In this document: in pieces, positions 1,786-51,756 of the stretch
Position numbering within the stretch: the stretch's first letter is position 1
Layout: every line of letters begins with the position of its first letter
Origin: Paenibacillus lycopersici
GTDB lineage: Bacteria; Bacillota; Bacilli; Paenibacillales; Paenibacillaceae
Assembly: GCF_010119935.1 (NCBI RefSeq)
Contig: NZ_CP048209.1
Location: forward strand, 1,359,501 to 1,423,500
Direction: 5' to 3'
Length of the DNA stretch: 64,000 bases
Made by a program: the position numbers and the translations under genes
Notes under the pieces: generated by a model
What the model saw: the letters and a program-made list of their open reading frames with translations, nothing else
What the model was told of the DNA's origin: nothing
The model's database searches: none

Positions 1786-2688
1786 TTGGCGCATGACCGC
1801 AAACGATTCCACTTCGACAATCTGTACTTTCTGGAGCCCAAGCAATACGAGCTGATCACCCTCTATCAAATCGGCGATTTATGCTGCGATTCCGGGTATA
1901 TGCTGCAGGAGCATACGCAGGTCTGCTACGAGATCACCTACGTCATGTCGGGGAAGGGCTGGTTCTCGACCAACGGCGTCCGCAGCGAGGTGGAGGCGGG
2001 CGACTTGTACATCAACGTTCCCGGCGAGACGCATACGGGGGGCGCCGACGACAAGGAGCCGTTCCGTTACTTCTATGTCGGCTTCCTCTTCAACCTGCAG
2101 CCGGACGACGAATACCGCGAGAGCCGCGAGATTCCGTTCATCCACATCCAGAAAATGATGGACAAGCGCGATCATCCGCTGACGAAGGACCGCCTCGACA
2201 TGCAGCATGCGTTCCTGAACGCCCTGAAGGAATTCCGCAACATGTCGCACTATTCGCAGATGATGTCGCAGATGTATCTGAACCAGCTGATCGTGCTCAT
2301 GTACCGCAACTACTTCTCCGACTGGGACAGCGCCTATCACTACGACCAAAGCAGCGGCGGACCCAAGGAGATCGTATACAATGCGATCAGCTACATCGAC
2401 AACAACATGCTGACGATGCAGGATCTCGCGGAGGTGTCCCGGGCGCTCGGATACAGCTACTCCTATCTGTCGCATCTGTTCACCGAAGAGACGGGCGTCA
2501 GCCTGCGCAACTTCTATTCGCAGAAGCGGCTGCAGAAGATGCTCGAGCTGATGAAATCGAAGACGCTGAGCATCACGGAAATCGCCTCGACGATGCAGTA
2601 TCAGTCCATTCACTCGTTCAGCCGCGCTTTCAAGAAGGCCGTCGGCTTGTCGCCGACGGAGTACATCCGCTTGTACTGCAAAGAGTGA
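1786..2688 (+). CDS. AraC family transcriptional regulator
   Basis: A 300-residue regulator with an N-terminal cupin-like sensing domain (about residues 20-160, containing a CYEITYVMSGKGWF strand and a VPGETH turn). The C-terminal double helix-turn-helix domain (about 205-298) includes DLAEVSRALGYSYSYLSHLF and the second helix region ending in GLSPTEYIRLY. The frame is open further upstream, but the TTG at 1786 has AGGAGG (1773-1778) seven bases before it, so it is the best start. The gene lies directly upstream of, and in the same direction as, a carbohydrate ABC transporter operon, so it probably activates that operon in response to its sugar. The ligand is unknown. Confidence 0.88.
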   Translation: MAHDRKRFHFDNLYFLEPKQYELITLYQIGDLCCDSGYMLQEHTQVCYEITYVMSGKGWFSTNGVRSEVEAGDLYINVPGETHTGGADDKEPFRYFYVGFLFNLQPDDEYRESREIPFIHIQKMMDKRDHPLTKDRLDMQHAFLNALKEFRNMSHYSQMMSQMYLNQLIVLMYRNYFSDWDSAYHYDQSSGGPKEIVYNAISYIDNNMLTMQDLAEVSRALGYSYSYLSHLFTEETGVSLRNFYSQKRLQKMLELMKSKTLSITEIASTMQYQSIHSFSRAFKKAVGLSPTEYIRLYCKE

Positions 2689-2822
2689 GCCCCGCCCTCT
2701 TCCGCCAATGACCTAAAGAATGGTACAACATTACAGCATGAACGGTTAAATACAGCCTTTCCCATTTCAGGTAAGATGCCCTTAAGCAGCGCACTTTAGA
2801 AAGAGGAAGAGGGGACCTTGAC

Positions 2823-4211
2823 ATGGGAAAGGTTAAACAGTTGGCTTCCATCGCTTTAGTGGGGAGCATGTCATTGACAATGTTGGCGGCATGCGGCAGC
2901 AACGATAACTCGAACGGCGGCGCGGCGAACGCGAATAAGCCGTCCGGCAGCGCGGCCGGCACGAACGCGAAGAACGGGAGCGGCTCGAACGCGGCGGGCA
3001 CGACGAACGATGCGCCCAAGAAAGACGTCGCGTTGAATTTCTGGACCATCTCGCTCAGCCCGAATTTCGACGATTACATCAACGGCCGCATTAAGAAATA
3101 CGAAGACGAGCATCCCGGCATCACGGTGAAATGGACCGACCTTCCGTACGGCTCCATGGAAAACAAACTGCTGACGTCCATTGCCGGCGGCAACTCGCCC
3201 GACGTCGTCAACCTCAACACCGGCATGACGCTGACGCTCGCGGCGAAGAACGCCCTTGTCGACCTGAACAAGGAAGCGACCGAAGAGCAGCGCTCCATCT
3301 ACTTCCCCGACCTGTACAACTCGACCAAACTGGGCGACAGCGCCTATGCCTTCCCATGGTACTTCGGCTTATCCGTATTCATGTACAACAAGAAGATCTA
3401 CGAAGAGGCGGGCCTAGATCCGAACAAGCCGCCCGTCACGTTCGAGGAGCTGAAGCAGCAGGCGGTCCAGATCAAGGAGAAGACCGGCAAATACGGCTTC
3501 ACGCTCGTCTCGAACCCGCCTGCCGACCTGTATTTCGCCGGCGTGCCGATGATCAGCGACGACAAGAAGAAGATCATTCTCGATACGCCCGAAGCGCTGG
3601 AGTGGGCGAAATGGAACAAATCGCTGTACGACGAGGGCGTCATTCCGAAGGACAGCGTAGGCGCCGACGCCAACTACGCGACGGACAAATACCAGGGCGG
3701 CCAGATCGCCACGTTGACGACGGGCGCGAACTTCCTGAACCGCGTCAAGACGAACGCGCCGGACGTGTACGGCAACACGCTCGTCGCCAAAATGCCGGCC
3801 AAGAAGGAAGGCGGCAATTACCAGGCGAGCCTCATGGACGTCGTCGTGCCGACCATGAGCAAGAACCACAAGGAAGCGATCGACTTCGCCAACTACATCA
3901 CGAACGACGAATCGCAGCTTGAATTCTGCAAGGTGGTCAACATTCTGCCGTCGACGAAGAAAGCGGCGGCCGATCCGTTCTTCACGCAAGCCGGCGACGA
4001 TCCGGAGTCCAAGGCGAAGATTATCGCGGCTTCGATGGTCGGGCAGGCGAAGGATTTTACGCTCGGCATCAAGGACGAGTCGAAGGTGCTGGACCCGCTC
4101 TGGAAGGGCTGGACGAAGATGATGCTCGGCCAGCAGTCGCCGGAGGAGATGCTGAAGACGGCCGAAGCGGAGATGCAGAAGCAGCTCGACGCGGTCAATG
4201 CGGATAACTAG
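2823..4211 (+). CDS. Sugar ABC transporter substrate-binding lipoprotein
   Basis: A 462-residue family 1 extracellular solute-binding protein. A lipoprotein signal (basic start, hydrophobic stretch, LAAC with Cys24) is followed by a low-complexity Asn/Gly/Ser/Ala linker to about residue 65. The binding-protein body then begins with VALNFWTISLSPNFDDYING and contains the typical YAFPWYFGLSVFMYNKKIYEEAGLD segment. It should be anchored on the outer face of the membrane and deliver a carbohydrate to the two permeases encoded next. No ATPase gene is in the cluster, so a shared MsmX-type ATPase elsewhere in the genome is likely. A GAAGAGGGG ribosome binding site precedes ATG 2823. Confidence 0.92.
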   Translation: MGKVKQLASIALVGSMSLTMLAACGSNDNSNGGAANANKPSGSAAGTNAKNGSGSNAAGTTNDAPKKDVALNFWTISLSPNFDDYINGRIKKYEDEHPGITVKWTDLPYGSMENKLLTSIAGGNSPDVVNLNTGMTLTLAAKNALVDLNKEATEEQRSIYFPDLYNSTKLGDSAYAFPWYFGLSVFMYNKKIYEEAGLDPNKPPVTFEELKQQAVQIKEKTGKYGFTLVSNPPADLYFAGVPMISDDKKKIILDTPEALEWAKWNKSLYDEGVIPKDSVGADANYATDKYQGGQIATLTTGANFLNRVKTNAPDVYGNTLVAKMPAKKEGGNYQASLMDVVVPTMSKNHKEAIDFANYITNDESQLEFCKVVNILPSTKKAAADPFFTQAGDDPESKAKIIAASMVGQAKDFTLGIKDESKVLDPLWKGWTKMMLGQQSPEEMLKTAEAEMQKQLDAVNADN

Positions 4212-11380: not shown

Positions 11381-11827
11381 TCAGGGCTGTTCGCCCGCCG
11401 CCGCATTCGCTTCCCCGCCGGCGTCCGAGCGGCTTGCGCCTTGCTGCCGGCCGCTGTCGGAAGTGGAAGAGCTTTGCGTTGCGCCTTGAGAGGCTCCAGG
11501 TGAAGAGCTTTGCGTTGCGCCTTGAGAGGCTCCAGGTGAAGAGCTTTGCGTTGCGCCTTGAGAGGCTCCGGGTGAAGCGCTTTGCGAAGCGCCTTGAGAG
11601 GCTCCAGATGAAGAGCTTTGCGAAGCGCTTTGAGAAGATCCTTGTGAAGATCCTTGCGGAGATTCCTGAACGGCGCCCTGAGTGGCCTCGGCATGTCTCC
11701 AAGGCGGATCGCCGGCACGGTGCAGCCGTTGATTGACGGTATAGACGAGCATTGGAATCGCCCATGACAGGACAGCGCAGATGATCGTTTTCACGGAAGG
11801 GAGGAAACTGATCGCTTTTTCCCACAC
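11381..11827 (-). CDS. Small membrane protein with repeat-encoded Ser/Gln tail, fourth gene of the ger operon
   Basis: A 148-residue protein read from a GTG at 11827 that follows GAGGAG inside the end of gerC. Residues 1-40 are MWEKAISFLPSVKTII and onward, with one clear membrane span (about 13-33). From about residue 55 the sequence is low-complexity and rich in Ser, Gln, Gly and Ala, built from 12-residue units such as SSPGASQGATQS encoded by 36-bp DNA repeats. It starts 6 bp past the gerC stop codon, so it belongs to the germination operon. Some ger operons encode a small membrane D subunit; this could be an analogue, though I see no sequence match to one. The repeat number may vary between strains. 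Confidence 0.65.
   Translation of the reverse strand: MWEKAISFLPSVKTIICAVLSWAIPMLVYTVNQRLHRAGDPPWRHAEATQGAVQESPQGSSQGSSQSASQSSSSGASQGASQSASPGASQGATQSSSPGASQGATQSSSPGASQGATQSSSTSDSGRQQGASRSDAGGEANAAAGEQP
11466..11645. repeat. Five tandem 36-bp repeats within the ger operon's fourth gene
   Basis: Units begin at 11466, 11502, 11538, 11574 and 11610. The first three are nearly identical and the last two diverge. Because 36 is a multiple of three, copy changes keep the reading frame and add or remove 12 residues. Confidence 0.9.
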
Positions 11828-40962: not shown

Positions 40963-41560
40963 GCCTTATTTGGTCTGGAAGCGGTCCAAGGGATACGTAA
41001 GGAATCCCAGAGGTGTTGATGCTGGCGAAAGGGTGCATATTCGAGGGTCGGCGCCCTAATAGCGCTGCTTGAGTTCCCGAAGTCGGGTGAGAGGCTAGAA
41101 TTGGCTATTATAGGCCTACTACGGTTCGTTAGCGGCTGAGAGCAGGTGAGATAGCGGGCACGTTCCGGTGCGAAAACGTGCAGGAGCGTTGGATATCGGC
41201 TGAGAGGCCAGGATCGGCGACTTTAGTCTACTGCTGTTCGTGGCCAGCGGCAGGAGCCGATACCGCGCGTATGCTTTAAGAATCCAGTAAGCCTTATTTG
41301 GTCTGGAAGCGGTCCAAGGGATACGTAAGGAATCCCAGAGGTGTTAATGCGGGCGAAAGGGTGCATATTCGAGGGTCGGCGCCCTATTAGCGCCGCTTGA
41401 GTTCCCGAAATCGGGTGAGAGGCCAGAATTGGCGACTATAAGCCCAATACGGTTCGTTAGCGGTTGAAGCAGGCGAGATAGCGGGCACGTTCCGGCGCGA
41501 AAACGTGCAGGAGCGTTGGAAATCGGAGCTGGAAGAGCCGGAAATGGGTTGAGGCCGGAA
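40903..41560. repeat. Tandem duplication with 328-bp period
   Basis: The sequence starting CTGCTGTTCGTGGCCAGCGG at 40903 recurs at 41231 and continues with few changes (GGTCTGGAAGCGGTCCAAGG, CATATTCGAGGGTCGGCGCC and others). The first copy starts inside the 3' end of the pseudogene, so the second carries a detached copy of that gene tail. Confidence 0.88.
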
Positions 41561-41770
41561 GTGGCGACTGTAAGTCAACCACGGTTCGTTAGCGGCTGAG
41601 AGCAAGCGAGATAGCCGACGCGTTCCGGTGCGAAAACGTGCAGGAGCATTGGAAACCCGAGCTGGAAATCGGTTGAGGCCGGAATCGGCGGCTATAAGCC
41701 CAATACGGTTCGTTAGCGGTTGAGAGCAGGCGTGACAGTCTGCACAGTCCGGCGTGAATACGTGCAAGGG
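41121..41770. repeat. Four dispersed copies of a GTTCGTTAGCGG unit
   Basis: Units beginning ACGGTTCGTTAGCGG are at 41121, 41449, 41581 and 41705. Each is followed by a GAGAGCAGG-type stretch and a CCGGTGCGAAAACGTGCAGG-type stretch. The first two are linked by the 328-bp duplication; the others are offset by 132 and 124 bp. No gene is present between 40963 and 41941. Confidence 0.85.
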
Positions 41771-49062: not shown

Positions 49063-50709
49063 ATGGGACAAGTGAAGAAACTTACGGGAATCGCGCTTTC
49101 GCTTGCACTTGCAGGCAGCTTGGCGGCATGCGGCTCGAACAACGACAACGGAGGTTCAACGGGCTCTGCTAGCAACAGCGGCACGAAAGCGGCCAACGAC
49201 ACATCGAAAGCGACCAACGACACGTCGACTTCGAGCAACGACACGTCGAATTCGAGCGACGCCGGCATCGACACGAGCAAGTTCGAGACCATCAACTATG
49301 TCGTGCTCGGCGACAAACCGAAGAACGGCCAACTCGAGAAAGTCATGGCGAAGGTCAATGCCATCCTCAAACAGAAGGTCAATGCGGAGCTGCAGTTCAA
49401 ATGGGTGGAATGGGCGGACTGGCAGACGAAATACAACCTGCTGCTCGCTTCCGGCGAACCGCTCGATCTGATCACGATCGGCACGGACTGGCTGGATACA
49501 TGGGGCAACGCGCAGCGCGGAGCGTTCCTGCCGCTTAACGATCTGCTGGAGAAATACGCGCCGCAGACGTACACGGAAATCCCGAAAGAAGACTGGGATC
49601 AGAGCAAGCTGGGCGACAAGATCATGATGATTCCGGAAGATCACTATACGCAATGGGTTAACCATGGCATCTACTACCGTGGCGATTGGGCGAAGCAGTT
49701 CGGCATTACGCAGCCGATTACGGACTTCGAAACGCTCGGCAAGTATTTCCAAGGCATCAAGGACAACATGAAAGGCATCGTGCCTTGGGATGTGAACGGC
49801 ACGAACGGCACGCTGTACACGGGCTTCGAAACGGCCTATACCGATAATATCGATCTGCCGATCGCGACCGGCTATGCGAACGTATTTACCGCGAAGTCCT
49901 ACGACGAGCGCTATACCGTCGACAGCCCGATCTTCAATGACGCATTCATCGATTTCGCCAAGCTGATGAAGGAATGGGCGGACAAAGGCTACTGGCGCGA
50001 AGACGTCCTCAACTACAAAGGCGATACGCGTACGGAGCTGAAGGCCGGCCAAACCGGCGCGGACGCGCACCATACGCAAACGTTCAAAGGCCTTCGCGTT
50101 GACATGGACAAAGCGCAGCCTGGATCCGAATTGCAAATGTTCGCTTACTCCGACACGCGCGGCAACCTGATCTCCATGCCGATTACGCATGGCGGCACGT
50201 CGATCGGCGCGCACAGCAAGGATCCAGGACGCGCGCTGATGGTATACGACCTGATTCGTCAAGATCCCGAGCTGTACCACCTGATCAACTACGGTATCGA
50301 AGGCGTGCAGTACGAGATCAAAGACGGCATCCGTACGCGTCCGGCAGGCTATGACGACGCGAAAGACGGATTCTATACCGATTTCTGGGGCGGCCGTATC
50401 GACAAGAACGAAATTCCGTCGGATACCGACTGGAGCGGCATCGGCGATATCTACGCGAAATACGACCAAATCAAGAAACCGTTCCCGTACGGCAAATTCG
50501 TCTTCGACAAATCGAGCGTCGATCCGGAGATGACGGCCATCTCGCAAGTCGTCGGCGAGCAAATGCCGGCGATCCTGTTCGGCAAAGCCGGCGATCCGGC
50601 GAAAGCGGTGCAGGCGCTGCGGGATAAATTGAAAGCGGCCGGGTACGAAAAAGTCAAAGCCGAAATCCAGAAGCAGCTGGATGCGTTCAAAGCAACGGAT
50701 CAAGGGTAA
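49063..50709 (+). CDS. Carbohydrate-binding lipoprotein, LplA/DUF3502 type
   Basis: A 548-residue extracellular binding protein. The lipobox is LAAC (Cys23), followed by an Asn/Ser/Thr-rich linker (to about 65) and a binding domain starting INYVVLGDKPKNGQLEKVMAKVNAIL. The last third matches the DUF3502 region of LipO-like proteins. GGGGAGG lies 9 bases before ATG 49063. It is the fourth gene of the GH35-permease-permease-binding protein operon, placed last rather than first. Confidence 0.9.
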   Translation: MGQVKKLTGIALSLALAGSLAACGSNNDNGGSTGSASNSGTKAANDTSKATNDTSTSSNDTSNSSDAGIDTSKFETINYVVLGDKPKNGQLEKVMAKVNAILKQKVNAELQFKWVEWADWQTKYNLLLASGEPLDLITIGTDWLDTWGNAQRGAFLPLNDLLEKYAPQTYTEIPKEDWDQSKLGDKIMMIPEDHYTQWVNHGIYYRGDWAKQFGITQPITDFETLGKYFQGIKDNMKGIVPWDVNGTNGTLYTGFETAYTDNIDLPIATGYANVFTAKSYDERYTVDSPIFNDAFIDFAKLMKEWADKGYWREDVLNYKGDTRTELKAGQTGADAHHTQTFKGLRVDMDKAQPGSELQMFAYSDTRGNLISMPITHGGTSIGAHSKDPGRALMVYDLIRQDPELYHLINYGIEGVQYEIKDGIRTRPAGYDDAKDGFYTDFWGGRIDKNEIPSDTDWSGIGDIYAKYDQIKKPFPYGKFVFDKSSVDPEMTAISQVVGEQMPAILFGKAGDPAKAVQALRDKLKAAGYEKVKAEIQKQLDAFKATDQG

Positions 50710-50733
50710 TCATTCGAATCGCTTTATCAGCCA

Positions 50734-50775
50734 TCGGCCCGGCAGGGAAACCTGCCGGGCCGATTATTGTTTGCG
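50734..50775 (+). terminator. Terminator of the GH35/ABC operon
   Basis: TCGGCCCGGCAGG and CCTGCCGGGCCGA around a GAAA loop, followed by TTATTGTTT. Confidence 0.9.
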
Positions 50776-50861
50776 CGGCGGCTGCGCGGCGGACGTCCGC
50801 CAGAAATTAGCAGCCCGACTGTGCTATATTTCAGATACATGCATCGTCTTCATACATGTAA

Positions 50862-51214
50862 GGGCTGGTCGTACCCGATATGAACGATTTGAATGTTTTC
50901 ATATCCAAAGGGTACTGCTCGCCCATGCATCCAGGGCTGGTCGTACCCGATATGAACGATTTGAATGTTTTCATATCCAAAGGGTACTGCTCGCCCATGC
51001 ATCCAGGGCTGGTCGTACCCGATATGAACGATTTGAATGTTTTCATATCCAAGGGGTACTGCTCGCCCATGCATCCAGGGCTGGTCGTACCCGATATGAA
51101 CGATTTGAATGTTTTCATATCCAAGGGGTACTGCTCGCCCATGCATCCAGGGCTGGTCGTACCCGATATGAACGATTTGAATGTTTTCATATCCAAGGGG
51201 TACTGCTCGCCCAT
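50862..51214. repeat. Five tandem 72-bp dyad repeats ahead of a sigma factor gene
   Basis: Units start at 50862, 50934, 51006, 51078 and 51150; the last ends at GCCC just before the ribosome binding site. Within each unit GGGC (1-4), GTACCC (10-15) and GATATGAA (16-23) can pair with GCCC (60-63), GGGTAC (49-54) and TTCATATC (37-44). So nearly every unit is one stem-loop separated by ATGCAT linkers. Units 1-2 have CCAAAGGG and units 3-5 CCAAGGGG. Since 72 is divisible by three, several frames on both strands are open without being convincing genes. Confidence 0.95.
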
Positions 51215-51231
51215 TAGGAGGTGATAATCGT

Positions 51232-51756
51232 ATGCTGCAAGAGGATAGGCCGGCCAAGTTTCAAGCGCTGTTCCGGGAGCATTACCCGATCGTGCTTCGC
51301 AAAATCGCTCAGCTGGTCGGGGATCGCGCCGCCGCCGAGGATTTGACGCAGGATGTGTTCCTGCGGCTGTACCGCAATCCGCCGGACGATCTGGACCGTG
51401 TAGGGCCTTGGCTGCATCGCGTATTGACCCGTATCGTATATGATCATTACCGCAAAACGGGGCGCCAGACGAATTTGGCCGAGAAGCAGATTCTGCAGGC
51501 GATGTCCGAGGAGCAGGCGCATCCGTCCAACGAGACGGCCGTCATTCAGAACTGGGAACGCGAAGTCGTGCGCAACGTGCTGAACAAGCTGTCCGAGCGC
51601 GACCGAAACGCGTTATTAATGAAGGAAAAAGGATATAGCCATGCCGAAATCGCCGAAGCGCTGCAGGTGAACCCGAAAATCGTCGGAACGCTGCTGATGC
51701 GGGCAACGAACCGATTGAAGAAAAATTTGCTGTTGGAGGAGGTCGTGGAATCATGA
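51232..51756 (+). CDS. ECF-type RNA polymerase sigma factor
   Basis: A 174-residue sigma factor with region 2 (QALFREHYPIVLRKIAQLVGDRAAAEDLTQDVFLRLYRNPP) and region 4 (VLNKLSERDRNALLMKEKGYSHAEIAEALQVNPKIVGTLLMRATNRLKK). The start ATG 51232 has the consensus TAGGAGGTGAT. The last of the 72-bp hairpin repeats ends 4 bases before that site. The gene overlaps its probable anti-sigma partner by ATGA (4 bp). It probably directs transcription of this operon and its exporters. Confidence 0.9.
   Translation: MLQEDRPAKFQALFREHYPIVLRKIAQLVGDRAAAEDLTQDVFLRLYRNPPDDLDRVGPWLHRVLTRIVYDHYRKTGRQTNLAEKQILQAMSEEQAHPSNETAVIQNWEREVVRNVLNKLSERDRNALLMKEKGYSHAEIAEALQVNPKIVGTLLMRATNRLKKNLLLEEVVES

Follow-up and report, generated by a model that had tools for sequence, protein, structure and literature searches.

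Architecture of the Array at the Sigma Factor Locus

The window, namely the whole 64,000-nt stretch of Paenibacillus lycopersici DNA that was analysed, contains an ECF-type sigma factor gene preceded by a tandem array of hairpin units (Table 1). The sigma gene is followed by a gene for a protein without a Pfam match, in the anti-sigma position, and then by two ABC ATPase/permease pairs. The preliminary description had placed the array between the terminator of a carbohydrate operon and a sigma/anti-sigma/ABC operon; the terminator-like hairpin, the sigma gene and the ABC pairs were all recovered, and only the anti-sigma assignment lacked a Pfam match.

Table 1. Features of the array and its flanks (positions in the window).
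Feature	Position	Strand	Basis or remark
Terminator-like hairpin, 3' of the solute-binding-protein (DUF3502) gene	50733..50764	+	Chance expectation from shuffles: 0.7 sites of this kind
TGTGCTATATTT, promoter-like block (extended -10-like), 5' of the array	50820..50831	+	Prediction
CGTCTT, second conserved block 5' of the array, possible ECF-type -10	50845..50850	+	Prediction; 14/15 relatives
Left AGG, presumed target duplication, overlapping the first bases of unit 1	50861..50863	+	Sequence compared with empty sites
Hairpin unit 1, 72 bp	50862..50933	+	
Hairpin unit 2, 72 bp	50934..51005	+	Same as unit 1
Hairpin unit 3, 72 bp	51006..51077	+	One A->G change
Hairpin unit 4, 72 bp	51078..51149	+	A->G change as in unit 3
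Hairpin unit 5, 65 bp	51150..51214	+	Without the last 7 bases
TAGGAGGTGAT	51215..51225	+	Intact SD AGGAGG (51216-51221), also serving as the right-hand repeat of the presumed target duplication
ECF-type sigma factor gene, 174 aa	51232..51756	+	Pfam Sigma70_r2 7e-15, Sigma70_r4_2 5e-11

Tandem Repeats Finder reported a period of 72, 4.9 copies and 99% matches at 50861-51214, in agreement with the five near-identical 72-bp units described earlier. The base change common to units 3-5 was also confirmed, and lies at unit position 48. This shared change and the near-identity of the five units bear out the earlier proposal of tandem expansion, and would fit a recent local amplification. Each unit is predicted to form a strong hairpin, as had been claimed: for unit 5 the folding energy is -28.9 kcal/mol, whereas its shuffles average -15.3 (z -4.61; equally low shuffles 0/200), and unit 1 has a z of -4.27 (1/200). 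The predicted fold consists of a GGGC/GCCC stem, a U.C mismatch, G.U, G-C and U.G pairs, a C.U mismatch, a GUACCC/GGGUAC stem and an apical stem. The gap between the last hairpin and TAGGAGGTGAT, given earlier as 4 bases, proved to be 2 bases (the GCCC ends at 51212). Two further tandem repeats were found in the window, at 11466-11658 (36 bp x 5.4, 90%) and at 41419-41766 (124 bp x 2.7, 78%).

The Sigma Locus in Related Genomes

The sigma gene was matched in 17 relatives, of which 15 were read (G020 and G014 were left out). None of the 15 carried the array at the sigma gene, and the core pattern of the hairpin (see below) was not found within about 500 bases upstream of the gene in any of them. 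In 11 of the 15, GAAGGAGG ran uninterrupted at this site; the other four were without the exact GAAGGAGG. At the G009 locus (L330), AAGGCTGAGGAGG stood in its place, possibly an excision scar of a hairpin at the site of the window array, and other SD forms were present in G013, G021 and G019. The closest named sigma orthologs were those of Paenibacillus glycinis (83%) and P. sp. OV219 (73%), whose 120-base leaders match the G016 and G018 leaders exactly.

Upstream of the array, GCTATATTT was exact in 9/15 relatives, and GCTAT was present in 14/15. Because these conserved promoter-like blocks lie upstream of it, the array is probably transcribed. Its position within the 5' UTR, implied by the earlier description, is thus upheld as a prediction; a sigma-70 consensus scan found no promoter.

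A Dispersed Family of Hairpin Units

When the window DNA was searched against 59 related genomes, matching arms were found in four, namely the own genome (at other places) and three of the same genus; outside the genus, the arms of the window array were not found in this sample. A covariance model, with which up to 150 of about 1800-3400 first-look candidates were scored per genome, matched 6/22 genus genomes, giving at least 48 units in G000 (the own genome), at least 20 in G009, at least 8 in G004, at least 6 in G016 and at least 2 each in G006 and G002. The core pattern (TGGTCG, 8-38 bases, CTGCTCGNNNATGCA) was present in 7/22 genus genomes and in 37/394 genomes of the family, several of the latter being chance matches in coding sequence (GAATTTGGCGGCC and GAGAATCTCGCC forms). 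A second pattern matched 16/392 genomes of the order and 2/398 of the phylum, the own genome being counted in each. With a third pattern, 14 viral contigs were matched, and eight of these looked genuine by eye (L354, L355, L359, L361, L362, L365, L366 and L367, with L355 and L366 read as one locus). By blastn, 63 phage records gave short weak matches, and none among the 20 matches listed covered 80% of the unit.

At other loci, the same arms surround different apical sequences. Units are mostly alike within an array and different between arrays, and one G009 array alternates two unit forms. No published description of the family was found in the open-licence literature, including a search by its sequence strings, and Rfam gave no match at gathering in the window; the matches obtained at 50700-51300 were all sub-threshold.

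Conserved Core and Covarying Stems

Two main forms of the hairpin were distinguished: the GGC type, with GGC/GCC outer stems and a length of 42-72 nt, and type C, with CCC/GGG outer stems and mostly 38-41 nt. The part that lasts throughout is the TGGTCG...CTGCTCG core (UGGUCG/CUGCUCG in RNA) together with the tail AUGCAWCC (AUGCANCC).

Covariation was scored on 45 of the 52 listed distinct short units, drawn from Paenibacillaceae, related families and viral contigs. In the named helix, 94.1% of cells were paired against 72.7% in shuffled sets, and there were 106 double-change cells against 37.6. The covariation score was 0.524 against 0.129 for shuffles (reached in 0/500), and the best slid control scored 0.165. 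As the 45 units were picked by a pattern that fixes the core, its invariance among them reflects selection; the stem covariation was not so selected. The core was also near-constant among 104 distinct units (one of 105 was dropped) collected under a looser rule that tolerated mismatches, a near-constancy owed in part to the limits set for the catalogue, namely 2 mismatches at most in the left core and 3 in the right part. For the stems, the catalogue required at least 7 of 9 pairs. Stem wobbles comprised 29 G.U and 18 A.C in the GGC type (p=0.14), and 12 G.U and 21 A.C in type C (p=0.16), so that no RNA-strand bias was seen in either form. The folded hairpin is conserved, and there is no sign of mRNA specifically as the conserved form.

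Position of the Arrays Relative to Genes

The array catalogue comprised at least 74 rows, in which one G009 array occupied two rows and the window array was entered with 4 units, unit 5 being without the tail; one tally of the catalogue left out 4 arrays. Among the 54 GGC-type arrays, from six genus genomes, 35 were followed directly 3', on their own strand, by an SD with its start codon, and 19 failed this test; on the other side, 2/54 passed. In a random control, 285 of 20000 positions in 49 loci passed. Type C arrays showed no clear SD preference (6/20, and 4/20 on the other side). An upstream ORF of at least 80 codons on the same strand ended within 40 nt of the array in 27/51 GGC-type cases, many of them single units rather than tandem ones, and between -4 and +5 nt in 17. 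Three chance-like rows (L139 at 2240422, L145 at 5464537 and L320) are within the 54 and out of the 51. The names gerM, yqeG, ytrH, ribF, ccdA, pepF, spoVIF and 5S rRNA, used here for neighbouring genes, were read from translations and flanks; the Peptidase_M3 and histidine kinase assignments were tested.

Copy number differed between genomes at the same site. Three yqeG units were present in G000 and one each in G004, G006, G009 and G016; for ytrH the numbers were 7 in G000, 4 in G004 and 3 in G016, for ribF 3 in G000 and 1 in G004, and for ccdA 2 in G000 and 1 in G009. The own genome thus had the most units in all four comparisons.

Copies were also found in frame inside protein genes. The Peptidase_M3 gene of G000 carries them at two sites, the first of which is also filled in G009; the second adds about 15 residues that are missing from the G009 ortholog. 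Another in-frame copy lies in a WalK-like histidine kinase gene of G009. Nesting was seen at L350 (G499), where a type C unit splits the apical region of a GGC-type hairpin whose uninterrupted form is present in the same genome. On the viral contigs, the hairpin at L361:4919-4961 stands 5' of the SD of a large serine recombinase gene (Resolvase, Recombinase and Zn_ribbon_recom domains), and that of L365 stands 5' of an SD-like stretch of a prophage tail gene.

Two further settings were noted. At L243, L245 and L248, type C hairpins adjoin, by eye, opposite-strand 5S rRNA genes at their apparent 3' end. A repeat of ~235 bp with inverted ends AGTTCAAAAAGTYCG / CGGACTTTTTGAACT encloses the hairpin in genera g12 and g34 (L239, with the hairpin at 1497-1540, L209, L240-L242, L247, L208, L212, L250 and L251). 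Eight such hairpins are present in G082, six of them with the full-length repeat and two (L244 and L246) with 81-88 bp of it. This repeat has the look of a MITE in its own right, with the hairpin as its cargo.

Filled and Empty Insertion Sites

Orthologous sites with and without the hairpin, as are known for MITEs, were found at gerM, yqeG and the sigma gene. The gerM site is filled in 5/21 readable genus genomes, reading GGTAGG[CTGG...]TAGGAGGATAA (that is, TAGG[CTGG...]TAGGAGG), and is empty in G006, which reads GGTAGGAGGATAA (TAGGAGG). The yqeG site is filled in 5/22 genus genomes and reads straight through in the 17 empty ones (e.g., GATAGCAGGGGAGTCG). At both, the difference between filled and empty sites is the hairpin with flanking AGG-type repeats. 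In G749, a member of another family, the hairpin lies within a group II intron remnant (Rfam RF02001, 37.1 bits) with the junctions GAAGGCAAGGG[CTGG...CAACC]TAGGTGTC; an intron on a Paenibacillus sonchi plasmid reads GAAGGCAAGGGTGTC without the hairpin, the two being related introns and not one site in two strains. Since this insertion also has the AGG-type pattern, AGG looks like the target even where there is no working SD.

The flanking repeats at gerM, yqeG and the intron are 3-4 bp long and partly overlap the conserved ends of the element, and target-site duplication is therefore not cleanly separable from site preference. Two exceptions to the AGG pattern were found: a copy on the spoVIF side inserted in TATAG|CCTACACC, a site that is empty in G006, and the second pepF copy, which has no clean AGG empty site. 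Where insertion occurred at AGGAGG, the SD was left whole and the preceding stop codon was often kept. With copies also lying in frame inside genes and inside one another, adjacency to the ribosome binding site is mostly explained by insertion preference rather than by a dedicated leader.

Search for a Mobilising Enzyme and Comparison with Known Repeats

The arms of the hairpin form imperfect inverted repeats. An autonomous partner was sought via PF01797 and RF02001. Y1_Tnp (PF01797) matched none of the 7 genus carriers; the single match among the 22 genus genomes was in G017, a non-carrier. For the group II intron domain (RF02001), no match was obtained in G000 under stricter filters, and 53/98 relatives matched.

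REP sequences are hairpins with mismatched stems and a short fixed flank, occur both in tandem and dispersed, and are associated with RAYT (Y1) transposases. The present family shares the mismatched stems, the short fixed flank and both arrangements. It differs in its flanking AGG-type repeats and its SD target, and the lack of a Y1 transposase match in the carriers led us to reject a REP/RAYT assignment. MIRUs are not known to have dyad symmetry, and they overlap start and stop codons with small ORFs. As in MIRUs, compared here by description, tandem units fill the space from one gene's stop codon to the next gene's start codon; unlike them, the units are hairpins that end directly before an intact SD, and the nearest named relatives of the host are Paenibacillus, not mycobacteria.

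The BOX, RUP and SPRITE elements of pneumococcus are, in the part of PMC3049150 drawn on here, short, non-coding, base-paired and dispersed, vary in presence at orthologous sites and can be nested; for BOX and RUP, the same source gives terminal inverted repeats as well as target duplications. Like these elements and like MITEs, the hairpin family is short, non-coding, dispersed, highly paired, variable in presence and nested. Unlike BOX and RUP, it has as its unit a single 38-72 bp hairpin, whose core is an internal loop and whose tail is on one side only, sits mostly at AGG or an SD, and forms tandem arrays of whole units. Rickettsia palindromic elements (RPEs) are given, in the portion of PMC10969869 consulted, as in-frame palindromic repeats of ~150 bp inside unrelated protein genes. 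In-frame copies inside protein genes are a feature shared by the hairpins; compared by description, the latter are shorter (38-72 bp), and most GGC-type copies lie at SDs, with few in genes.

Origin of the Array and Alternative Explanations

Taken as a whole, the evidence makes it highly probable that the window array belongs to a dispersed family of inserted hairpin elements of 38-72 bp, situated mostly at AGG and very often at an SD, and that at this locus the element was likely inserted and then likely amplified. One hairpin copy would have been inserted upstream of the AGGAGG of the sigma gene, and the single copy then likely amplified in tandem to five. Movement may have proceeded by transposition of the hairpin, recognised in its folded form or by its ends, through an enzyme acting in trans. 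The likeness of units inside one array, set against their divergence from those of other arrays, suggests that the tandem units arose by local amplification, either by slippage or by unequal crossing-over. Transcription would then yield a 5' UTR that carries the hairpins as a passive stack, with the SD usable and at most a side effect on the stability or translation of the mRNA. Speaking against the mobile reading are the missing match to a Y1 transposase or to RF02001, the short repeats that overlap the element ends, the copies away from SDs, the two sites outside the AGG pattern and the four relatives without the exact GAAGGAGG; nor was any movement seen between strains of a single species.

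A compatible addition to this mobile origin is that the inserted hairpin has since been exapted, and now acts on the sigma mRNA as a putative 5' stabiliser or as a substrate for RNase. The family and the empty-site data support the mobile origin that this requires, Correia and ERIC elements, among other small repeats, alter transcripts in a like manner according to the part of PMC10969869 used, and in predicted folds the presence of at least one unit leaves two SD bases more open than they are in a leader without units (0.03 unpaired each when the array was removed in silico, other bases changing little or in the opposite direction), although the unit-free leader is an artificial one. The array is, however, not conserved at the sigma gene, and we regard such a role as possible rather than likely.

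A dedicated RNA leader, in which the five hairpins set the stability or translation of the sigma-operon mRNA and their copy number tunes it, is considerably less probable. In its favour, the array stands between the conserved promoter-like blocks and the SD, where it is probably transcribed, the stems covary, the 35/54 GGC-type arrays mentioned above precede a same-strand SD, and several copies on viral contigs precede SD-like stretches of phage-type genes. Against it, 15/15 readable relatives are without the array at the sigma gene, and the same hairpin stands 5' of many functionally unrelated genes, inside genes, beside apparent 5S rRNA and in a group II intron; on these grounds the array no longer reads as a regulatory device of the sigma regulon, as first suggested. 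The tuning by copy number that had been proposed with it is not supported by the predicted SD exposure, which is flat from 1 to 5 units (e.g., unpaired probability 0.36-0.37 and 0.68-0.70 at the two SD bases). With this flat exposure, no wobble strand bias (p=0.14; type C p=0.16) and no Rfam match at gathering, an RNA leader or riboswitch was rejected.

The hairpin is also very unlikely to be a piece of a group II intron or larger transposon decaying in place: copies do lie in a group II intron remnant and, in other genera, in the ~235 bp inverted-end repeat, but most genus copies stand alone between host sequences, and its assignment as an intron domain was rejected since the two same-class introns compared are both without it at that point and G000 gave no match to the RF02001 family under the stricter filters. 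Least probable of all is the stack of DNA operators raised in the preliminary description, with a protein reading the palindrome, for which long tandem palindromes with a near-constant core would speak, and against which the stems are free to change by compensatory pairs while only the internal-loop core and the tail stay, many copies lie between same-strand genes or inside genes, and the array at the sigma gene is downstream of the predicted promoter blocks.

Implications for the Family

In kind, the element is still a small interspersed repeat of the palindromic sort, with MITEs, RPEs and MIRUs as its nearest counterparts. What we would call new is a bare structured hairpin combined with an AGG/SD target and with no enzyme found among PF01797 and RF02001. 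More tentatively, and with less than even confidence, the family may represent a new class of mobile element: a bare hairpin of 40-70 nt whose signal is the folded internal loop UGGUCG/CUGCUC with AUGCAWCC, and which would be moved by an enzyme into the AGG of an SD, rebuilding the downstream ribosome binding site and often the upstream stop. Such an element would be a nearly cost-free parasite across Paenibacillaceae, related families and viral or integrative-element contigs, and would seed variable arrays of 5'-UTR hairpins.

What appeared to be a one-off regulatory leader thus becomes one instance of a family of tiny, probably mobile hairpins that share a defined core and have the ribosome binding site as preferred target. 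The case is also a warning that the position of a hairpin beside an SD is insufficient for reading regulation. The choice of the ribosome binding site as target explains how these elements enter operons without breaking them, and makes of them a ready source of leader hairpins and of in-frame peptide insertions.
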